Virus record (IMG/VR): IMGVR_UViG_3300010399_000072
Coordinates: 1-28,344 of that record
DNA length: 28,344 nt
Source: a virus
Direction: 5' to 3' (one strand)
Shown here: piece after piece, positions 1,128-27,116 of the stretch
Numbering within the stretch: position 1 is the first letter of the stretch
How the letters are laid out: every line of letters begins with the position of its first letter
Notes under the pieces: model-generated
Seen by the model: the letters and a program-made list of their open reading frames with translations, nothing else
Told to the model about the DNA's origin: nothing
The model's database searches: none
Program-made: the position numbers and the translations under genes

Positions 1128-2903
1128 TCATCTACGCCACTGATCGTTGCCTTCGAGCGCTGCAACTCGCGCTGAAAGCTTCTGGAGCGCGAAAAGTAGC
1201 GGGAGCAGGAGTTTCCCGGGCGTGGCCTCCCAGCGCTCGGGAACAGTCTTGTCCACGAGCTGCAGCCACGTGAGGCCCCACTTCACTTGCCAGGCGTCGA
1301 TACCCTGCGCAATCACACCAACCTGTGGCCCAGGCGGCATGCCGTCGTTGATCCACTCGAAGATAACGACAGCGATATCTTCGATCGCCCCGTCTGGGAT
1401 GTCGAAGAGCCGCACGTTCTTCTTGAAGCGGATATCCGAAAGTGCGGTGATCGTCGTCACCTGCGCTCGAATTACAGAGATGCTGGCATTGCCGAGCGTG
1501 ATTTGGTTGGAGGCCGTACAGACTGCAGCGTTGCCAATCGCTGTGGTGTTCGTGTAGTTGCCCGCATCCGCATCGGCCGTATAGCCAATAAATGTGTTCG
1601 TGCTTCCGGTAGTGTTCGTAAGCCCGGCGCTATGACCGATGGCCGTATTCGCCGCACCCGTCGTCGCGCCAAGTGCATTTTTCCCAACGGCGGTGTCGAA
1701 ATCGGCAGTAACGTTCGCAACCAGCGCATCTTCGCCGACTGCGGTATGCCCGGCTCCGGTCGTATTGTTGGCGAGCGCTCGATGGCCGCACGCGGTATTG
1801 GCCGTACCGGTGCTGTTTGTGGTCAGGGAGGCCTGACCAACAGCGGTGTTTCCGGCGGCTGTATTGAAGCTGAGCGCGCCATGACCAACAGCGGTGTTCT
1901 CGCTCGCTGTCGTGCAATTGTTGAGCGAGTCCTTGCCGACAGCGGTGTTCTCGTGGCCCGTTGAGATATTGAGACCAGCGTTTCGACCCACGCCCACATT
2001 GTTTGCACCCGTGCAGTCTTCCAGCGCATAGGCACCGCAGGCGGTGTTGTCGTTTGCCGATACATTCGTGAGCAGTGCGTGTTCACCTACCGCTGTGTTT
2101 TGGCTGCCGGTCTCGTTGCGGAACAGCGCGCCTTGCCCAACAGCCGTGTTCTCGTCGCCCGAAGTGTTGAAGTCGAGGCAGTTTTCTCCGACCGCCGTAT
2201 TGAAGCTGCCATCGACATTCGACTCCATGTTGTGGGAGCCGATCGAGGTATTCTTTTCCCCCGTAGTATTCGCCCTGAGTGAACCGAATCCCACGGCTGT
2301 ATTGTCACCACCGGTTGTGTTGACTTCGAGGGCGCTCTTGCCAATTGCTACGTTCTCGGAGCCGGTCGTGTTGAGCGTCAAAGCAGCGCGGCCTAACACC
2401 ACGTTGCTTGAGACAGAGCCTGAGCCCAGCCCCACGAGCGGCAGCAGTGCCTGGTCCGACACGGCCACAGCATTCGCGATGGTGGCGTATCGCTCTTGTA
2501 GGACGATGCCGATCACGTTGCTTGGTACGGCGTAATCCACAATCACCGCGCCGGCCGCCGTTTCCTCTGGCGTCTTCGGATACAGCAACTGCCCGATAGT
2601 GGAGCTCGACACGAGTGTCGAAATGTCATCCACCGACCAAATCGGGTTCGTCGGCGGATCCGTATCGTTCGGCGGAGACAACACAAACTTGTAGCTGAGC
2701 GCGGGATCTAGCCAGATTCGGCACTCCCCGCGATAGTCGAGCACAATGGGGTTCGTGTTGACCGATCCGCCGGTCTCATCTGTGTACGTAGCAACCTTGG
2801 TGGTTGTACCGGCGGTGTAGGTAAACAGAAGCCCCTTCACCAAGGGCTCTCCATTGTTGGAGAAGAATTTCTGAACTGGCAGCGGTGAAAGAACAGTGCT
2901 CAC
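1128..2903 (-). CDS. tail fibre with YadA-head-like repeats and S74 chaperone domain
   Basis: A 591-residue trimeric-fibre protein. Residues 1-95 are an anchor domain shared with the gene upstream (motifs NNGEPLVKG, LDYRGE, NDTDPP). Residues about 167-465 are some 17 repeats of about 17 residues with the pattern N-T-A-V-G-x-x-A-L-x-x-N-T-T-G, the motif of trimeric autotransporter (YadA) heads, which fold as left-handed beta-rolls. Residues 480-591 are a Peptidase_S74 intramolecular chaperone: LSDIRFKKN places catalytic Ser489 and Lys494 five residues apart, as in endosialidase K1F, followed by a helical end. It presumably drives trimerisation and then cleaves itself off. GTG start, overlapping the upstream stop (GTGA). 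Probably the receptor-binding protein. Confidence 0.85.
   Translation of the reverse strand: MSTVLSPLPVQKFFSNNGEPLVKGLLFTYTAGTTTKVATYTDETGGSVNTNPIVLDYRGECRIWLDPALSYKFVLSPPNDTDPPTNPIWSVDDISTLVSSSTIGQLLYPKTPEETAAGAVIVDYAVPSNVIGIVLQERYATIANAVAVSDQALLPLVGLGSGSVSSNVVLGRAALTLNTTGSENVAIGKSALEVNTTGGDNTAVGFGSLRANTTGEKNTSIGSHNMESNVDGSFNTAVGENCLDFNTSGDENTAVGQGALFRNETGSQNTAVGEHALLTNVSANDNTACGAYALEDCTGANNVGVGRNAGLNISTGHENTAVGKDSLNNCTTASENTAVGHGALSFNTAAGNTAVGQASLTTNSTGTANTACGHRALANNTTGAGHTAVGEDALVANVTADFDTAVGKNALGATTGAANTAIGHSAGLTNTTGSTNTFIGYTADADAGNYTNTTAIGNAAVCTASNQITLGNASISVIRAQVTTITALSDIRFKKNVRLFDIPDGAIEDIAVVIFEWINDGMPPGPQVGVIAQGIDAWQVKWGLTWLQLVDKTVPERWEATPGKLLLPLLFALQKLSARVAALEGNDQWRR
1509..2405 (-). 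repeat. about 17 tandem coding repeats of roughly 51 bp (YadA-head motif)
   Basis: Degenerate in-frame repeats encoding the N-T-A-V-G-x-x-A-L motif. The period is mostly 17 codons, with a few units one codon shorter. Bases are diverged between units while the Gly, Asn and Ala/Leu positions are kept, pointing to selection on the protein fold rather than recent slippage. Confidence 0.8.
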
Positions 2904-4004: not shown

Positions 4005-6056
4005 TCATGGCGGCACCTCGTCACCTTCCCTTCGGCGAATACCAGCGCCCGGCTCCGTTGCCTCTCTGATCAGCTTTCGCTCTGAACGCTGCTGGAATTT
4101 CTTGCGCGCGAACGTCCCCACTGGAATTCCGCCAGCCTGAACATTTGCGTAGCCCTCCAGGATGTTTGCCGCATGCTCTCTTGCCGCGGCTACAAACGTG
4201 TTGGAGTTGTTAACGAATGCTCCGCGCGGCTGCGCCTGCGTGTAACGCGCGACATTTCCGAGTGCCTGCGCCCGTTCGGCGACCTGCTCACCGAGGAGGA
4301 ATTCAAGCTTCGGCGTTAGCTCACTGAGCGCTCGGTTGTATCCAGCCTGAGAGAAGTTGCCTTCGTTCGTATACAGGTTTACGCCAGACTTGGACTTCAC
4401 ATAGTTGAGCGCGCCCGCAGCGATCGTCTCGGCTGCCTGCGGATCTGCGGCTAGGTTGTCGCGCATGTTCTTGATGTTCGCGGCCTTGCCTTTGACGACG
4501 TACTTCTGCACGAAGTCATCCGCGAGCGACGAAAGTTCGCCGATCTCTGCTCCATCATCCACCGCCGCCCGATAGGCTGGATCGGCACGCAAGCGATCAA
4601 ACCGCGCCTTTGCCGCCGCACGAGCCGTGTCGGCCAGCGGCTTGATCTTTGCAGCCTCGCCCGTCATGGGAAGCGATTCGAGAGATTCGCGCACAATGTT
4701 CACCGCTGCCGCGGCATTGCCATCTCCACTTCGCTCTGCCTTCCTGGCTTCCGCCGCAAGATTGGTGCGCAGGTTTTCGAACTGCTCAAACGTCATTGAG
4801 CCGGTTTCGCGAAGATCTGCAAGATCGCCCGCAACCTGAGACGGCACGTAACGGCCTTTCAGCTTTTTGGAGAGCGCCCGGTCTGCTGCTTCAACAAACG
4901 TCTTTCCGTCCACTGGGAACTGTCCGCCGTTTGCCTCCTCGAGTGCTTTGTATTTCGCGCGAATGTCCGCAACGATGGGCTCGTCTGCAGTCTTGTACGC
5001 GTCGATCAGGTATTGCCCATTCTGGACATGGTCCTGGCCAACAACATTGGGAGCGGCTTCACGGCGAATCTCATCGAGGTTATCGATCAGATTCTGATTC
5101 TGTTCGTTAAAGATCCGAGCGAGCTCAGGATTCTTTCCACGCGCGTTCTGCTCGATGGATATTTGCGTTGGATCTTGTGTCGCCTGCCCTTTGGTCAAGC
5201 GCATCTTGATGGGCAGCGAGTCGGCCTCTAGGTGCCGAGTCAGTACGTCACGATTGAGGCCACCTTCTTGAGCTGCACGCTGCACGACCGCGCGAATCTC
5301 GGGGCTTGCCGCCACGATATCGGGCGATGCTGCGGCGGCACTCAGCGTGTCACTACCGAACGATGTTGCAGGGGCCGCGCTGGAAGCTGGCATTGGCTCC
5401 TTGCCTGCTGCTCGTAACATGGCATCTGAGGTTGCCTCGCCGGCCTGCGCAACCCTGCGTCCTGCACTGGCGACCGTCGAAGCTGCAGATTTGGCGCCCG
5501 AAGACACCGCGCCAGGCACTTCGCGCAGGATCTGAGTGGCAGGAGAGACGAAAGGCGAAAGGCCCATGATCCCGCTCGCCGCTCCCGCTGCGGCCGGCAC
5601 CTCGCGCAACAAACTCTCTGCGAAGGGGCTTACCGTTCCAACAGAAGACGCTGCACGGTCCGCGATCTTCGCCACCGGACGCATGAGGGTTTGGGTCGTG
5701 AGATCAACATCGGCCTGCGCGGCCTTGCCGCTTTCGCTGATCGGATCGTAGGTGAAGTATTCAGACACATCGGCCATCGTCTGCGCAGGATTCACATTGA
5801 GTCCTAGTGCTCGACCAATTGCCGCCCCTCCATATGCGATGCCGCCAGGAATGCCTGACACTGCGCGCGTAACCATGCGGAGCCCTTCTTCTGCAGCTCC
5901 TACAGGTGCCATAGAGATCGACGGTGTGGACTGGCGCTTGGGCGAGTCTGATGGCTCTGCGCGACCCTCAAGCAACGATATGGCACGCTGGGACGGCGTC
6001 TCCTCCTCAGAGGAGGCGCTATCGTCGTTCAGCAGAGCAAGCGCTGCTTCACTCAT
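4005..6056 (-). CDS. large internal virion / DNA-ejection protein
   Basis: A 683-residue protein, Ala-rich and strongly helical, with an acidic N-terminus (DDSASSEEE), a Gly/Ala-rich hydrophobic stretch (about residues 64-86) and long coiled-coil-like C-terminal helices. It is the last and largest of four consecutive genes between the tail factors and the fibres, the place of P22 genes 7, 20 and 16, whose products leave the capsid with DNA and form a conduit across the envelope. Sequence alone does not show which P22 protein it corresponds to. No lysozyme or transglycosylase motif is visible. It overlaps the upstream gene by ATGA. Confidence 0.65.
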   Translation of the reverse strand: MSEAALALLNDDSASSEEETPSQRAISLLEGRAEPSDSPKRQSTPSISMAPVGAAEEGLRMVTRAVSGIPGGIAYGGAAIGRALGLNVNPAQTMADVSEYFTYDPISESGKAAQADVDLTTQTLMRPVAKIADRAASSVGTVSPFAESLLREVPAAAGAASGIMGLSPFVSPATQILREVPGAVSSGAKSAASTVASAGRRVAQAGEATSDAMLRAAGKEPMPASSAAPATSFGSDTLSAAAASPDIVAASPEIRAVVQRAAQEGGLNRDVLTRHLEADSLPIKMRLTKGQATQDPTQISIEQNARGKNPELARIFNEQNQNLIDNLDEIRREAAPNVVGQDHVQNGQYLIDAYKTADEPIVADIRAKYKALEEANGGQFPVDGKTFVEAADRALSKKLKGRYVPSQVAGDLADLRETGSMTFEQFENLRTNLAAEARKAERSGDGNAAAAVNIVRESLESLPMTGEAAKIKPLADTARAAAKARFDRLRADPAYRAAVDDGAEIGELSSLADDFVQKYVVKGKAANIKNMRDNLAADPQAAETIAAGALNYVKSKSGVNLYTNEGNFSQAGYNRALSELTPKLEFLLGEQVAERAQALGNVARYTQAQPRGAFVNNSNTFVAAAREHAANILEGYANVQAGGIPVGTFARKKFQQRSERKLIREATEPGAGIRRREGDEVPP

Positions 6057-22907: not shown

Positions 22908-23113
22908 GCTCGCCTCCTCTCGCCGCTCCATTGCGTGGGCACGCCCTCTTCCGTGCGCTTGCCAACCTTGAGTGCTGGTGTTTCGAGCCAGTCGAGCTTC
23001 GCGTCGAACTTCTCGCGCAAGGCATCAGCCACGGCGCACATCTGCTGCCCCATCGCGGCCCGAACCCTTTCGGCTTGAGCGATGCGCCATTGATCTCCCA
23101 CCGTCGCGTTCAA
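22904..23113 (-). CDS. small helical protein after the primase/helicase
   Basis: A 69-residue protein, helix-rich (AQAERVRAAMGQQMCAVADA and LREKFDAKLDWLE), ending in a basic tail GERRRA. It overlaps the primase/helicase by four bases and the nuclease-like gene by GTGA, so it belongs to the replication operon. No family recognised; a replication accessory role is suggested only by its neighbours. Confidence 0.5.
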   Translation of the reverse strand: MNATVGDQWRIAQAERVRAAMGQQMCAVADALREKFDAKLDWLETPALKVGKRTEEGVPTQWSGERRRA

Positions 23114-25008
23114 ATTCGCGCTCCGATGTCCGGCGAGTTGTCCAAATTGGGCCCGTCAGAAAACCCCTTCGGGGTTTTTTCGGACGTGCGTCCAATCGGT
23201 ACGGTTTCGGACGTTTTGGACATTTTGGACATGTCCTCGTTGGTCAACCGATACCCTCCAATCGTGGGGGTCAGGTAGAAAGCGGCTATGGCTGCGCAGG
23301 TCTCCTGCGCGGTCTGCCGCTTCATACCAAGCTCACGCGCGATACGGCGCAGCTCGGGTGGTCCCCAAATCAACGGCTTCTCACTCTTGCTCTGGAGGTC
23401 CCTTAGCGCGCCGATCAATTCGCGCTGGCGCAACCCCCTGGGCGCGCGGCCCCGGGTTTCGGTTGCGACGGTCGAGCTGTCCACAGGGGTCAGGGCAAGA
23501 GAGGTCACCGGCCGGTCATCGTCATCGATCTCACACAAATCGATCACGTCTGCCCGGTAGGCCAGCGGGGGGAGATCACCACTGTCCTTGAAACGCTCGC
23601 GACTCACGGTGATGGTCCTTTCACCGGGCGTGCGAGCTATTACGTAGGCTGCGTCCGTATCGGCTTCCAATGCCGATGCACCTCGGGCGCGACCCTTTTC
23701 GACGTGCCCGGTGTGATGCACCAGGAGCACGGTTGCGCCATATCGGCGCTTCAAATGGACATCGAGGTTGCCGATGTAGGCTTTCACCTCGCTGTTGGAG
23801 TTCTCATCGAGGCCGCCTGAGTTCTTCGACAGCGTGTCGATGATGATCAGGACGGGCGGAACCTCCAGCGAATCGATGTCAGCGCAGACCGCAGCAATCG
23901 ATTCGGCGGAGTTGAAGTCTACGCGCATCTCAAGCGCGTAGACGGGAAGGTTCTGCGGATTCACTTTCGGCGCGTTCTTGTTAAGCCACGCGCGAAAGCG
24001 GCGATCGATGCCCCGGCCTTCGGCCGAGATGATGACAATGGGCATACCCTCGATCGCGATAGACATTGCCCAATGGATCGCCACGAACGATTTGTACGTT
24101 CCGCGGGGACCGAGCAGGATGGCGATCACGCCCTGCTCGATCACATCCCGTATCAGCCATTGCGGCCTTGTGGGTTCGGCGATGATTTCACTCAAGCGTT
24201 TCAGTCGCCGTTCGGGCTTCGCCTCTTCTAGCCATCCGCCCACGTCAACGTTGTTCACGAGTGCATCGGCCATATCCCACCCGACTGGAAGATCGGGCAA
24301 GCGGTCGATGGGATCGATGATGCGGATGCTGGCCGCGAGATCTTTCACGTGCTCGCGTACCCAGGCCATTGCCTTGCGGCCAGGCGCATCACAGTCGGGA
24401 ATGAGCGTTAGAGGACGCCCTTTGACAGGCGTCCAATCCGCCTGACCGACTGATTGAGCTCCGCCGGGCCAGGTCGTCGCGATGTAGTCCGGAAACAGTC
24501 GCTGGGCTGCGTGCGCCGCCTTCTCCCCTTCGACAACGATGACTGGCTTGTCCGGGTCGGACGCGAGGCGATCGAGCTGGAATAGCGGACGCGGATTGGG
24601 ATGGTGCTGCCACTTCCATCCTTCCGGTGTCTTCACGATCGGACGAATGTCCTTCCGTCCGCCGGGCTGCTGCCAACGGCATACACGCATGATTGTGACG
24701 CCGTGTGGATCACGATAATCCCAGTGCTGGTGATACTCGCCGAGCTGAAAATGCTCTTCCGGGATTCCTTCCGACTTGCGGGACAGCTCGGCGCCCTTCA
24801 GTTCCAGCGCCTGAGCAATGTCTCGATAAGAGCATCCGGCGTAACACACCAGTGCCAGGCCATCGCGGCCATCGGCCAGAAAGAGAGAAGGATGTCGATC
24901 GTCGTGGGCCGGGCAGCAGGCTTTCCAGCCGGTCGGCGTGCGCTGTGGCTTATTAAGTAGCGCCGCGACCTGCTCTGCTCTCCACGGTTGTGTCATGGCG
25001 TGCAGCAT
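23110..25008 (-). CDS. TOPRIM primase / RepA-type helicase
   Basis: A 632-residue bifunctional replication protein. Zinc finger: C-C-P-A-H (Cys31/32, His35) with C-Y-A-G-C (Cys55, Cys59). TOPRIM primase: VVEGEKAAHAA (Glu160) and LIPDCDAPGRKA (Asp205, Asp207). Helicase/ATPase of RecA fold: Walker A GPRGTYKS (300-307), Walker B VLIIIDTLSK (Asp391), and LVHHTGH (about 429-435). The C-terminal 130 residues contain an HTH-like segment (ELRRIARELGMKRQTAQET) and a short MSKMSKTSE repeat. It starts at ATG 25008 (TGATG overlap); a second ATG four codons on lacks an RBS. It likely opens and primes phage DNA replication. Confidence 0.85.
   Translation of the reverse strand: MLHAMTQPWRAEQVAALLNKPQRTPTGWKACCPAHDDRHPSLFLADGRDGLALVCYAGCSYRDIAQALELKGAELSRKSEGIPEEHFQLGEYHQHWDYRDPHGVTIMRVCRWQQPGGRKDIRPIVKTPEGWKWQHHPNPRPLFQLDRLASDPDKPVIVVEGEKAAHAAQRLFPDYIATTWPGGAQSVGQADWTPVKGRPLTLIPDCDAPGRKAMAWVREHVKDLAASIRIIDPIDRLPDLPVGWDMADALVNNVDVGGWLEEAKPERRLKRLSEIIAEPTRPQWLIRDVIEQGVIAILLGPRGTYKSFVAIHWAMSIAIEGMPIVIISAEGRGIDRRFRAWLNKNAPKVNPQNLPVYALEMRVDFNSAESIAAVCADIDSLEVPPVLIIIDTLSKNSGGLDENSNSEVKAYIGNLDVHLKRRYGATVLLVHHTGHVEKGRARGASALEADTDAAYVIARTPGERTITVSRERFKDSGDLPPLAYRADVIDLCEIDDDDRPVTSLALTPVDSSTVATETRGRAPRGLRQRELIGALRDLQSKSEKPLIWGPPELRRIARELGMKRQTAQETCAAIAAFYLTPTIGGYRLTNEDMSKMSKTSETVPIGRTSEKTPKGFSDGPNLDNSPDIGARI
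23160..23180. terminator. A-stem hairpin inside the 3' end of the primase/helicase gene
   Basis: AAAACCCC-TTC-GGGGTTTTTT: an 8-bp stem, GC core plus A/T flanks, ending in six T on the plus strand and four T on the minus strand. It has the look of a rho-independent terminator, stronger for rightward (antisense) transcription. It lies within coding sequence (residues SEKTPKGF), so leftward transcription must read through. May block antisense transcripts, or act in the putative origin nearby. Confidence 0.45.
23179..23231 (-). repeat. iteron-like direct repeats at the primase/helicase 3' end
   Basis: On the minus strand AYGTCCRAA occurs four times: two adjacent ATGTCCAAA, then ACGTCCGAA, and after a gap of about 18 bp another ACGTCCGAA. 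One near-copy in the opposite orientation (TTGTCCAAA) is at 23138. They are coding (MSK, MSK, TSE, RTSE), but the spacing and a nearby hairpin resemble iterons of phage origins that lie inside initiator genes. Confidence 0.4.
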
Positions 25009-25906: not shown

Positions 25907-25974
25907 CCGCCCTCTCCCGGATAGGAGTGACGCGCGCAGCCATAGGATGGGCACGGGTTACTCGTGTCACTTTC

Positions 25975-26082
25975 ATGGAGAGATCACCACATGCCCCGCA
26001 TTACCTGCCGGCAACGCCGGCTCATACAGTGCTGTATGAAATCGTCCCAACTCGTTCTGTCGAATGGCGAATATTCCGTTAA
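25975..26082 (+). pseudogene. possible transposase-like N-terminal fragment
   Basis: A 35-codon frame (MERSPHAPHYLPATPAHTVL, then YEIVPTRSVEWRIFR) that recalls the N-terminus of IS91-type transposases (pattern Y-x-P-R-x-P-E-x-T-V-L-Y-x-x-V). Only the first 25 residues look right, and no other transposase domain or terminal repeat is present. If correct, it is an old remnant. The similarity is from memory and weak. Confidence 0.2.
26007..26039. repeat. two adjacent inverted repeats
   Basis: GCCGGC-AAC-GCCGGC (26007-26021) is followed at once by TCATACAG-TG-CTGTATGA (26022-26039), a perfect 8-bp-arm palindrome. The first would form a very stable hairpin in RNA; the second looks like a protein-binding site. 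No T run follows. It is located downstream of the left regulator's stop codon. Confidence 0.5.
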
Positions 26083-26170
26083 GCCTTATACCGAGTGGTG
26101 CTTTTGCATAAGCTCGGCGTTGTTGCCCAAAGCTTCCCTGATGCAGCAAGGTGCGCATAGCAACGATGGA

Positions 26171-26407
26171 TTAGGCGCTGAGCGCCGGGATGGCGCGCGT
26201 GGACTGACGAGGCTTTGGGAATGTATCGGCGAGCACGAGCTCCAGCGCACGCAGAGTTTCAAGGCTCGTGTTTGTGGTTTCGCCGGTGGCGATTCGGTTG
26301 ACCGTCGATTGCGAGACGGGCTTACCGAGTTCCTTGCTGCGTTTGGCGATCGCGTACTCGGAAAGTCCGCTCTCTTTCAGCTTGTCGACGATCTGCAGGG
26401 GGTCCAT
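26171..26407 (-). CDS. Cro-sized HTH (XRE-like) regulator under the left promoter
   Basis: A 78-residue DNA-binding protein. After MDPLQIVDKLKESG comes an HTH of XRE type: LSEYAIAKRSKELG, then VSQSTVNRIATGE, with the turn between; then an amphipathic helix LETLRALELVLADTF and a basic tail. ATG 26407 is chosen since it lies seven bases after the -10 TATACT, giving a leaderless mRNA; the six-codon extension MHILRV is the promoter itself. No peptidase domain. It is transcribed leftward from the promoter next to the CI-like gene. It may act as Cro or as an early regulator. Confidence 0.7.
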   Translation of the reverse strand: MDPLQIVDKLKESGLSEYAIAKRSKELGKPVSQSTVNRIATGETTNTSLETLRALELVLADTFPKPRQSTRAIPALSA

Positions 26408-26414
26408 CACCCTG

Positions 26415-26442
26415 AGTATATGCATCCGCGGGACGGCGTCAA
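26415..26442 (-). promoter_or_regulatory. left early promoter
   Basis: On the minus strand: -35 TTGACG (26442-26437), 16-bp spacer, -10 TATACT (26420-26415), then seven bases to the ATG. It contains CGGGACGG (plus strand 26429-26436), repeated at 26451-26458, 22 bp away. The element TATACT...TTGAC region (26415-26446) matches the right promoter at 27 of 32 positions, so both are probably bound by the same repressor. Confidence 0.7.
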
Positions 26443-26466
26443 CCCGATAGCGGGACGGACATGTAT

Positions 26467-26486
26467 TTCGACGGTGATGCGTCGAA
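26467..26486. promoter_or_regulatory. palindrome in front of the CI-like gene
   Basis: TTCGACG-N6-CGTCGAA, a perfect 7-bp-arm inverted repeat ending nine bases before the ATG at 26496. It differs from the CGGGACGG elements, so it may bind a different regulator, for instance autoregulation by the CI-like protein or repression by one of the small HTH proteins. No good -35/-10 for the gene was found here. Confidence 0.5.
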
Positions 26487-26495
26487 GCTTACTGA

Positions 26496-26984
26496 ATGAA
26501 AAGCAAAGAAAAAGACCGCAAGCCGAACGACAAACTTCGGCAGATGATCGAGCTACTGTGCGACGGCATGGAAGAGTTCTGGCGACTCGACGATGCGGGA
26601 AAGAAAGTCGTGAACATCTACGCACTTCACGTTGCACTGAAGCGCTGGGCATCTATGCACGGCCGAACGGCGCCGTCGCAGTCGACCCTCAATCGAAATT
26701 ATGCTGGGGAAACAGACAACTTCAGTCCGGAAACGGCGCAGGTTTTAAGCGACTTTTTCCGTATCCCCAAGGCTGTAATCACGGGCGACCTGAAGGTCTC
26801 CAGTGAGGCATGGGGCGTGGACATAACAACATCAGAGATTCGCTGGATCATGCTGCTTCGTGAGCTAAACACCGATCAGCGTAACGTGATCTATAGCACG
26901 ATCAAGGCGCTCCTCCCGCCGGACATTCCCTCGCCGCCAGTGCCGTCGGGCGTCGCGCCTCTCGTGAAACCCCCCAGGCACTAA
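26496..26984 (+). CDS. CI-like HTH repressor without peptidase domain
   Basis: A 162-residue protein. A basic N-terminus is followed by an XRE-type DNA-binding domain at about residues 39-92 (YALHVALKRWASMHG, PSQSTLNRNYAGET, FSPETAQVLSDFFRI). The C-terminal part (VDITTSEIRWIMLLRELNTD) is a helical region like the dimerisation part of short phage repressors. There is no S24 LexA-type peptidase, so induction would not be by simple RecA-stimulated cleavage. It lies between two outward promoters that share an operator-like element. The ATG has no Shine-Dalgarno site, suggesting a leaderless or poorly translated message. Likely the immunity repressor. Confidence 0.65.
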   Translation: MKSKEKDRKPNDKLRQMIELLCDGMEEFWRLDDAGKKVVNIYALHVALKRWASMHGRTAPSQSTLNRNYAGETDNFSPETAQVLSDFFRIPKAVITGDLKVSSEAWGVDITTSEIRWIMLLRELNTDQRNVIYSTIKALLPPDIPSPPVPSGVAPLVKPPRH

Positions 26985-27035
26985 AATTTCAGGCCGCTCA
27001 ACGTCTGCGCATCGATTTGCTTTGATATATGCAGT

Positions 27036-27069
27036 GACGGGTTGACACCGTCCCGTCCGTGCATATACT
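27036..27069 (+). promoter_or_regulatory. right early promoter with operator
   Basis: -35 TTGACA (27042-27047), 16-bp spacer, -10 TATACT (27064-27069). The inverted repeat GACGGG-N10-CCCGTC (27036-27057) covers the -35, a typical repression arrangement. It is the counterpart of the left promoter, with the same spacer length and common sequence. The first ATG lies eight bases after the -10. Confidence 0.75.
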
Positions 27070-27077
27070 GCTCCCCC

Positions 27078-27116
27078 ATGAGCCCGACGCACCGGGCCAA
27101 TGGGAGCCGAACGTGA
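27078..27116 (+). CDS. possible 12-residue leader peptide (uORF)
   Basis: ATG 27078 opens MSPTHRANGSRT and stops at TGA that overlaps the GTG start of the next gene (GTGA). It would be at or next to the 5' end of the right transcript. It contains the next gene's GGGAG ribosome site, so its translation would affect that start. The minus-strand promoter places its ATG at an equivalent distance, supporting its use. Confidence 0.4.
   Translation: MSPTHRANGSRT

Follow-up and report, generated by a model that had tools for sequence, protein, structure and literature searches.

The window (a virus record taken in full, 28,344 bases) carries a compact gene arrangement that we consider, with a probability of roughly three in four, to be a lambda-type immunity cassette, in which the 162-residue protein P0002 acts as the repressor and the 78-residue protein P0001 acts as Cro; binding, repression, a leaderless start, lysogeny and the induction route are what we infer from it. 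On anatomy, an outward early promoter lies on each side of the repressor-candidate gene, the two having related operators, and the divergent Cro-sized helix-turn-helix (HTH) gene leads into replication genes. The initial annotation had proposed a lambda-type two-promoter immunity switch, whose anatomy holds and is conserved in two phages, while the rightward repressor gene taken as an oddity and the regulators placed on both arms did not survive the comparison. The arrangement is regarded as real because it recurs in two further uncultivated phages. What results is an immunity module that is compact and conserved, occurs in phages having no isolated relative and includes a repressor candidate missed by annotation libraries.

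The shared promoter and proposed operator element

The left promoter-operator (26415–26446, minus strand) has the form TTGACG-16-TATACT within the shared 32-nt element and occupies a PR-like position, and the right one (27023–27069, plus strand) combines TTGACA-16-TATACT with a mirrored upstream copy of TATATGCA in a PL-like position. These were the only two sigma-70-like promoters reported by a scan of 25.0–28.3 kb. The proposal that two promoters share one element was borne out, as the left copy (26446–26415, minus) and the right copy (27038–27069, plus) agree at 27 of 32 bases, both contain hexamers with 16-bp spacers, and the match exceeded that of every shuffle. It was reached in none of 200 dinucleotide shuffles of 25.0–28.3 kb (maximum 26, self-hairpins included), and 200 mononucleotide shuffles of the 1.1-kb neighbourhood gave a maximum of 24. 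The position assigned earlier to the left promoter is retained, and the right start of 27036 is shifted by 2 nt, the matched block starting at 27038. There are exactly three copies of the octamer CGGGACGG in the 28.3 kb, at 26429 and 26451 (plus strand, 22 bp apart) and at 27048 (minus strand), so that its description as twofold at the left and single at the right was accurate.

Over the six sites, the best dyad centre, with 9.7 of 18 pairs where the runner-up had 7.0, was located in the middle of YGGGTTGAC/RNCGTCCCR, and the 18-bp imperfect dyad CGGGACGGCGTCAACCCG (26429–26446 in the left copy) is proposed as the operator core. An extra CGGGACGG half-site is present at 26451–26458 (plus strand), 22 bp from the first, for which TGGGACG is found in the relative L088 and a degenerate version (TGCGACGG) in the relative L089. 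Operator sets of three in the lambda style are absent, as each promoter here has one full dyad and the left one has a single additional half-site. When the alignment was read by eye, a mirrored TATATGCA was seen 4 nt upstream of the right core in all three phages, and the corresponding place at the left was occupied by another CGTCCCR-like half-site.

The two relatives are independent IMG/VR contigs, one of 7.1 kb (containing L088 and L090) that was found by a search with P0001, and one of 52.4 kb and siphovirus type (L089/G001) that was found with a relaxed element pattern. Both keep the order and strands of the cassette, namely 78-aa HTH gene, element, 162-aa gene and element. The element is present in two copies per record only, and in all three phages the left and right copies form the best-matching inverted pair of their neighbourhood, with 27 of 32 matching bases in the window and 24 in each relative, where the shuffle maxima were 23 and 22. 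The conservation to be expected of both elements in an alignment of related phages was therefore observed, both being kept in L088 and L089. Among the six elements, 20 of the 32 columns are invariant, giving the pattern.GG.TTG....CGTCCC......GCATATACT, in which the invariant bases include not only the –10 hexamer TATACT but also, outside the hexamers, CGTCCC and GCA in the spacer and GG upstream. The 4 nt separating CGTCCCR from the –10 region vary freely among the six sites. When the window is compared with L088, identity is 86% over the right promoter-operator, whose flanks give 39–50%, and 77% over the left operator; the neighbouring non-coding DNA gives 39–53%, and TATATGCANTGAYGGGTTGAC in the right promoter-operator is present in all three phages. 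As 20 of 32 positions, spacer included, are invariant when the proteins are only 45–81% identical to those of the window, the comparison points to selection on an operator-promoter pair.

It might be argued that the element is merely a duplicated strong early promoter, in which conservation is due to the host polymerase or to a phage-specific activator, since both hexamers lie inside it and the –10 TATACT is invariant. The spacer sequence of sigma-70 promoters is, however, normally not conserved, which makes an operator the simplest reading of the element; its invariant spacer and upstream bases are not part of the hexamers and are arranged as a dyad, and the left element of L089 retains CGTCCC even though its –35 hexamer is TTGCAG. 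In three phages, moreover, copies of the element stand on both sides of the same candidate HTH gene, and we consider a simple promoter duplication improbable.

Further members were sought without success: searches of viral and genome contigs with the exact 32-mer pattern and with single P0002 sequences gave nothing, a two-sequence alignment search of the genome contigs gave no match, and a three-sequence search of the viral contigs gave no further contig. No match was obtained by tblastn of P0001, P0002, P0003 and the P0002 homologues against phages, or of the L089 homologue against plasmids. The element also offers a means by which related modules in metagenomes could be spotted through their DNA rather than through a protein family.

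The repressor and Cro candidates

P0002 (26496–26984, plus strand) is a 162-aa orphan repressor candidate with a predicted HTH at approximately residues 41–69 and C-terminal helices at 112–139, and its homologues are 59% (L088) and 45% (L089) identical. Of the CI-like HTH gene described between the promoters, the open reading frame (ORF) was confirmed, and the HTH was visible only via the comparison with P0001 and the predicted fold, as P0002 gave no match and no HTH against Pfam and PHROG and its homologues gave no significant match. A comparison of the P0001 and P0002 profiles matched their recognition helices (SQSTVNR / SQSTLNR) with an hhalign probability of 81% (E = 1.2e-5), which may in part represent general HTH_3 similarity. 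The S24 peptidase (PF00717) had no match in the window or G001, neither P0002 nor any of its homologues had a Pfam family above cut-off, and a lambda-like S24 repressor was rejected on the absent S24 match. No conserved promoter or Shine-Dalgarno sequence for the 162-aa gene was seen when the alignment was inspected by eye.

The AF2 model of P0002 (mean pLDDT 77), for which only three sequences were available as for the other AF2 models, was best matched by the N-terminal domain of TP901-1 CI (VIA Z 9.9, 2.0 Å over 73 residues). TP901-1 CI is one among many XRE folds matching this model, including 434 Cro (Z 6.7) and P22 c2 (Z 6.5), and helical folds reach middling Z values easily, though the four TP901-1 entries still ranked above the rest. 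In a sequence search of P0002 against PDB chains, TP901-1 was not matched, and a profile match to the capsid protein VP1 (E = 0.11) was judged to be chance. The structural match raises the alternative of a TP901-1-type switch, in which P0002 would be a non-cleavable CI and P0001 a MOR-like partner working through a CI:MOR complex instead of Cro competition. TP901-1 CI, in which no peptidase domain is detectable, exerts repression through three operators, OR, OL and OD (PMC7250872), and its compact divergent CI/MOR pair of less than 1 kb resembles the present one. Sequence identity in the structural alignment is only about 10%, however, and TP901-1 is a lactococcal phage. The recognition-helix segment common to P0001 and P0002 also favours common operators as in CI/Cro, and such a switch is considered unlikely here, though it is the alternative to which we give the most weight. 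We keep to the CI/Cro reading, with P0002 as a candidate for a new repressor lineage in a known kind of switch.

P0001 (26174–26407, minus strand), the 78-aa HTH_3 protein in the Cro position, is encoded by the first gene of the left, replication-side arm. It matched Pfam HTH_3 above the cut-off (E = 1.8e-5) and the PHROG 6831 transcriptional regulator (1.8e-7), and its homologues are 81% (L088) and 55% (L089) identical. Four helices were predicted in its model, and the PDB matches of P0001 to de novo designed proteins were judged to be chance. The ATG of P0001 (26407) is located 7, 7 and 8 nt past the –10 hexamer in the window and the two relatives, a distance at which transcription usually starts, so that the transcript is probably leaderless with this ATG as its first codon. 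An alternative upstream ATG (26425) overlaps the –10 region and is missing in L089. The leaderless gene of lambda is cI, whereas here it appears to be the one in the Cro position. The immB region of PY54, N15 and phiKO2 likewise contains a CI/Cro pair, and leaderless cro and cI mRNAs have been documented for PY54 (PMC4488713). It differs in having a putative antiterminator gene and in belonging to linear plasmid prophages, and for the Cro of PY54 there is only one binding site, adjacent to cI.

Based on these features, P0002 would serve as the immunity repressor by binding to the 18-bp core (YGGRTTG...CGTCCCR), which overlies the –35 hexamer and spacer of both early promoters. Bound P0002 would thereby shut off the left arm, with its Cro-like gene followed by replication, together with the accessory genes of the right arm. 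P0001, which has a similar recognition helix, would play the part of Cro. Translated from the leaderless mRNA that the left promoter would give, it may occupy the same operators and lower repressor synthesis. RecA-stimulated self-cleavage is unlikely as the means of induction because no S24 domain is detectable in P0002, and an antirepressor or a Cro/MOR-type partner would be the more likely route. The two proposed operators and the two regulators are all mapped at single-base resolution, which opens operator specificity, translation of a leaderless Cro and S24-independent induction to direct testing.

Orientation of the cassette and its two arms

In lambda, cI diverges from cro, cro leads into the replication genes, and cI reads toward PL. 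Here, P0001 diverges from P0002 and leads the left arm, and P0002 reads toward the right promoter. The left arm is the replication arm because a primase/helicase gene (23113–25008, minus strand; PHROG 239 DNA primase/helicase, E = 1.5e-25) is situated there; on the P0001 side of the relatives, primosomal and DnaB-like proteins were found in L095, and AAA/DnaB-like matches as well as weak CHC2-type ones in L090. The cassette is hence a mirror image of PL-cI-PR-cro. The rightward CI-like gene had been viewed as a departure from lambda, but it is no anomaly, since the cassette is the lambda order reflected with the replication arm on the left, and the mirror orientation is that of the record only. 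Lambda is resembled in the placement of the repressor-position gene between outward early promoters with near-identical operators, in the divergent Cro-sized gene that leads into replication genes, and in the repressor gene reading toward the PL-position promoter. The present cassette differs in that its promoters are about 610 bp apart, as compared with about 2.3 kb in lambda, and in a repressor candidate with no detectable S24 peptidase.

The right arm begins with P0003 (27113–27349, plus strand), a 78-aa HTH protein with a GTG start and an upstream GGGAG motif, which matched PHROG 1373 (E = 2.4e-9) and 2339 (E = 1.7e-7) and gave Pfam HTH matches below the curated cut-offs. An HTH protein of 78 residues is thus encoded on each arm of the window, as the initial annotation had noted, both ORFs having HTH family matches. 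That Cro-sized regulators on both arms are a property of the switch is contradicted by the relatives, in both of which the right HTH gene is replaced: the slot holds a non-HTH 101-aa ORF in L088/L090 and a short unrelated ORF in L089. P0003 lies directly behind the right promoter and might for that reason be a third component that binds the element. Its relatives, however, occur in loci that have no element; it aligns only weakly with the P0001 profile (hhalign probability 10%), and its recognition helix is a different one. Such a role is very improbable and was rejected on conservation; the most plausible view of P0003 is that of right-arm cargo, because unrelated ORFs fill its slot in the relatives.

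Among the Pfam matches of the window are a terminase and a portal of P22 type (PF16510, E = 1e-144), the terminase being 44–55% identical to its best matches in phage records, and no match to phage records was obtained for the immunity region at the DNA level. G001 encodes a tape-measure protein and a phrog_21 portal, and because the two records differ in these, the cassette is common to unlike virion types, which suggests that the immunity module has been exchanged between them. It is a far bolder and improbable reading that a repressor family absent from the databases governs a mobile cassette moved between P22-type podoviruses and siphoviruses. On this reading the operator would be bipartite (18-bp dyad, variable 4 nt and TGCATATA), so that the repressor would recognise the –10 region together with the core, and lytic entry would be coupled through the leaderless Cro gene to ribosome state. 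Integrase (PF00589), resolvase (PF00239), and ParA- and ParB-type proteins had no match in the window or G001, either of which may be a fragment, and lysogeny is for these reasons unproven; the switch itself would imply a temperate life cycle.

No Rfam family was found in the window. Just downstream of the Cro-position gene, a segment at 25973–26170 (minus strand) is strongly conserved with L088, has its counterpart at 4290–4410 (minus strand) of L090, and contains the perfect run GCCGAGCTTATGCAAAAGCACCA. The segment, which overlaps a 61-aa ORF, takes the position of nutR/tR1 in lambda. Its substitution pattern does not distinguish a small protein from a cis RNA element, and its predicted folding was no better than that of shuffles. 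At the other end of the window, tandem 48-bp repeats (1834–1953) were observed inside a long ORF (1128–2903, minus strand), whose match to Peptidase_S74 (chaperone of endosialidase) near the end indicates a tail-fibre-like protein.
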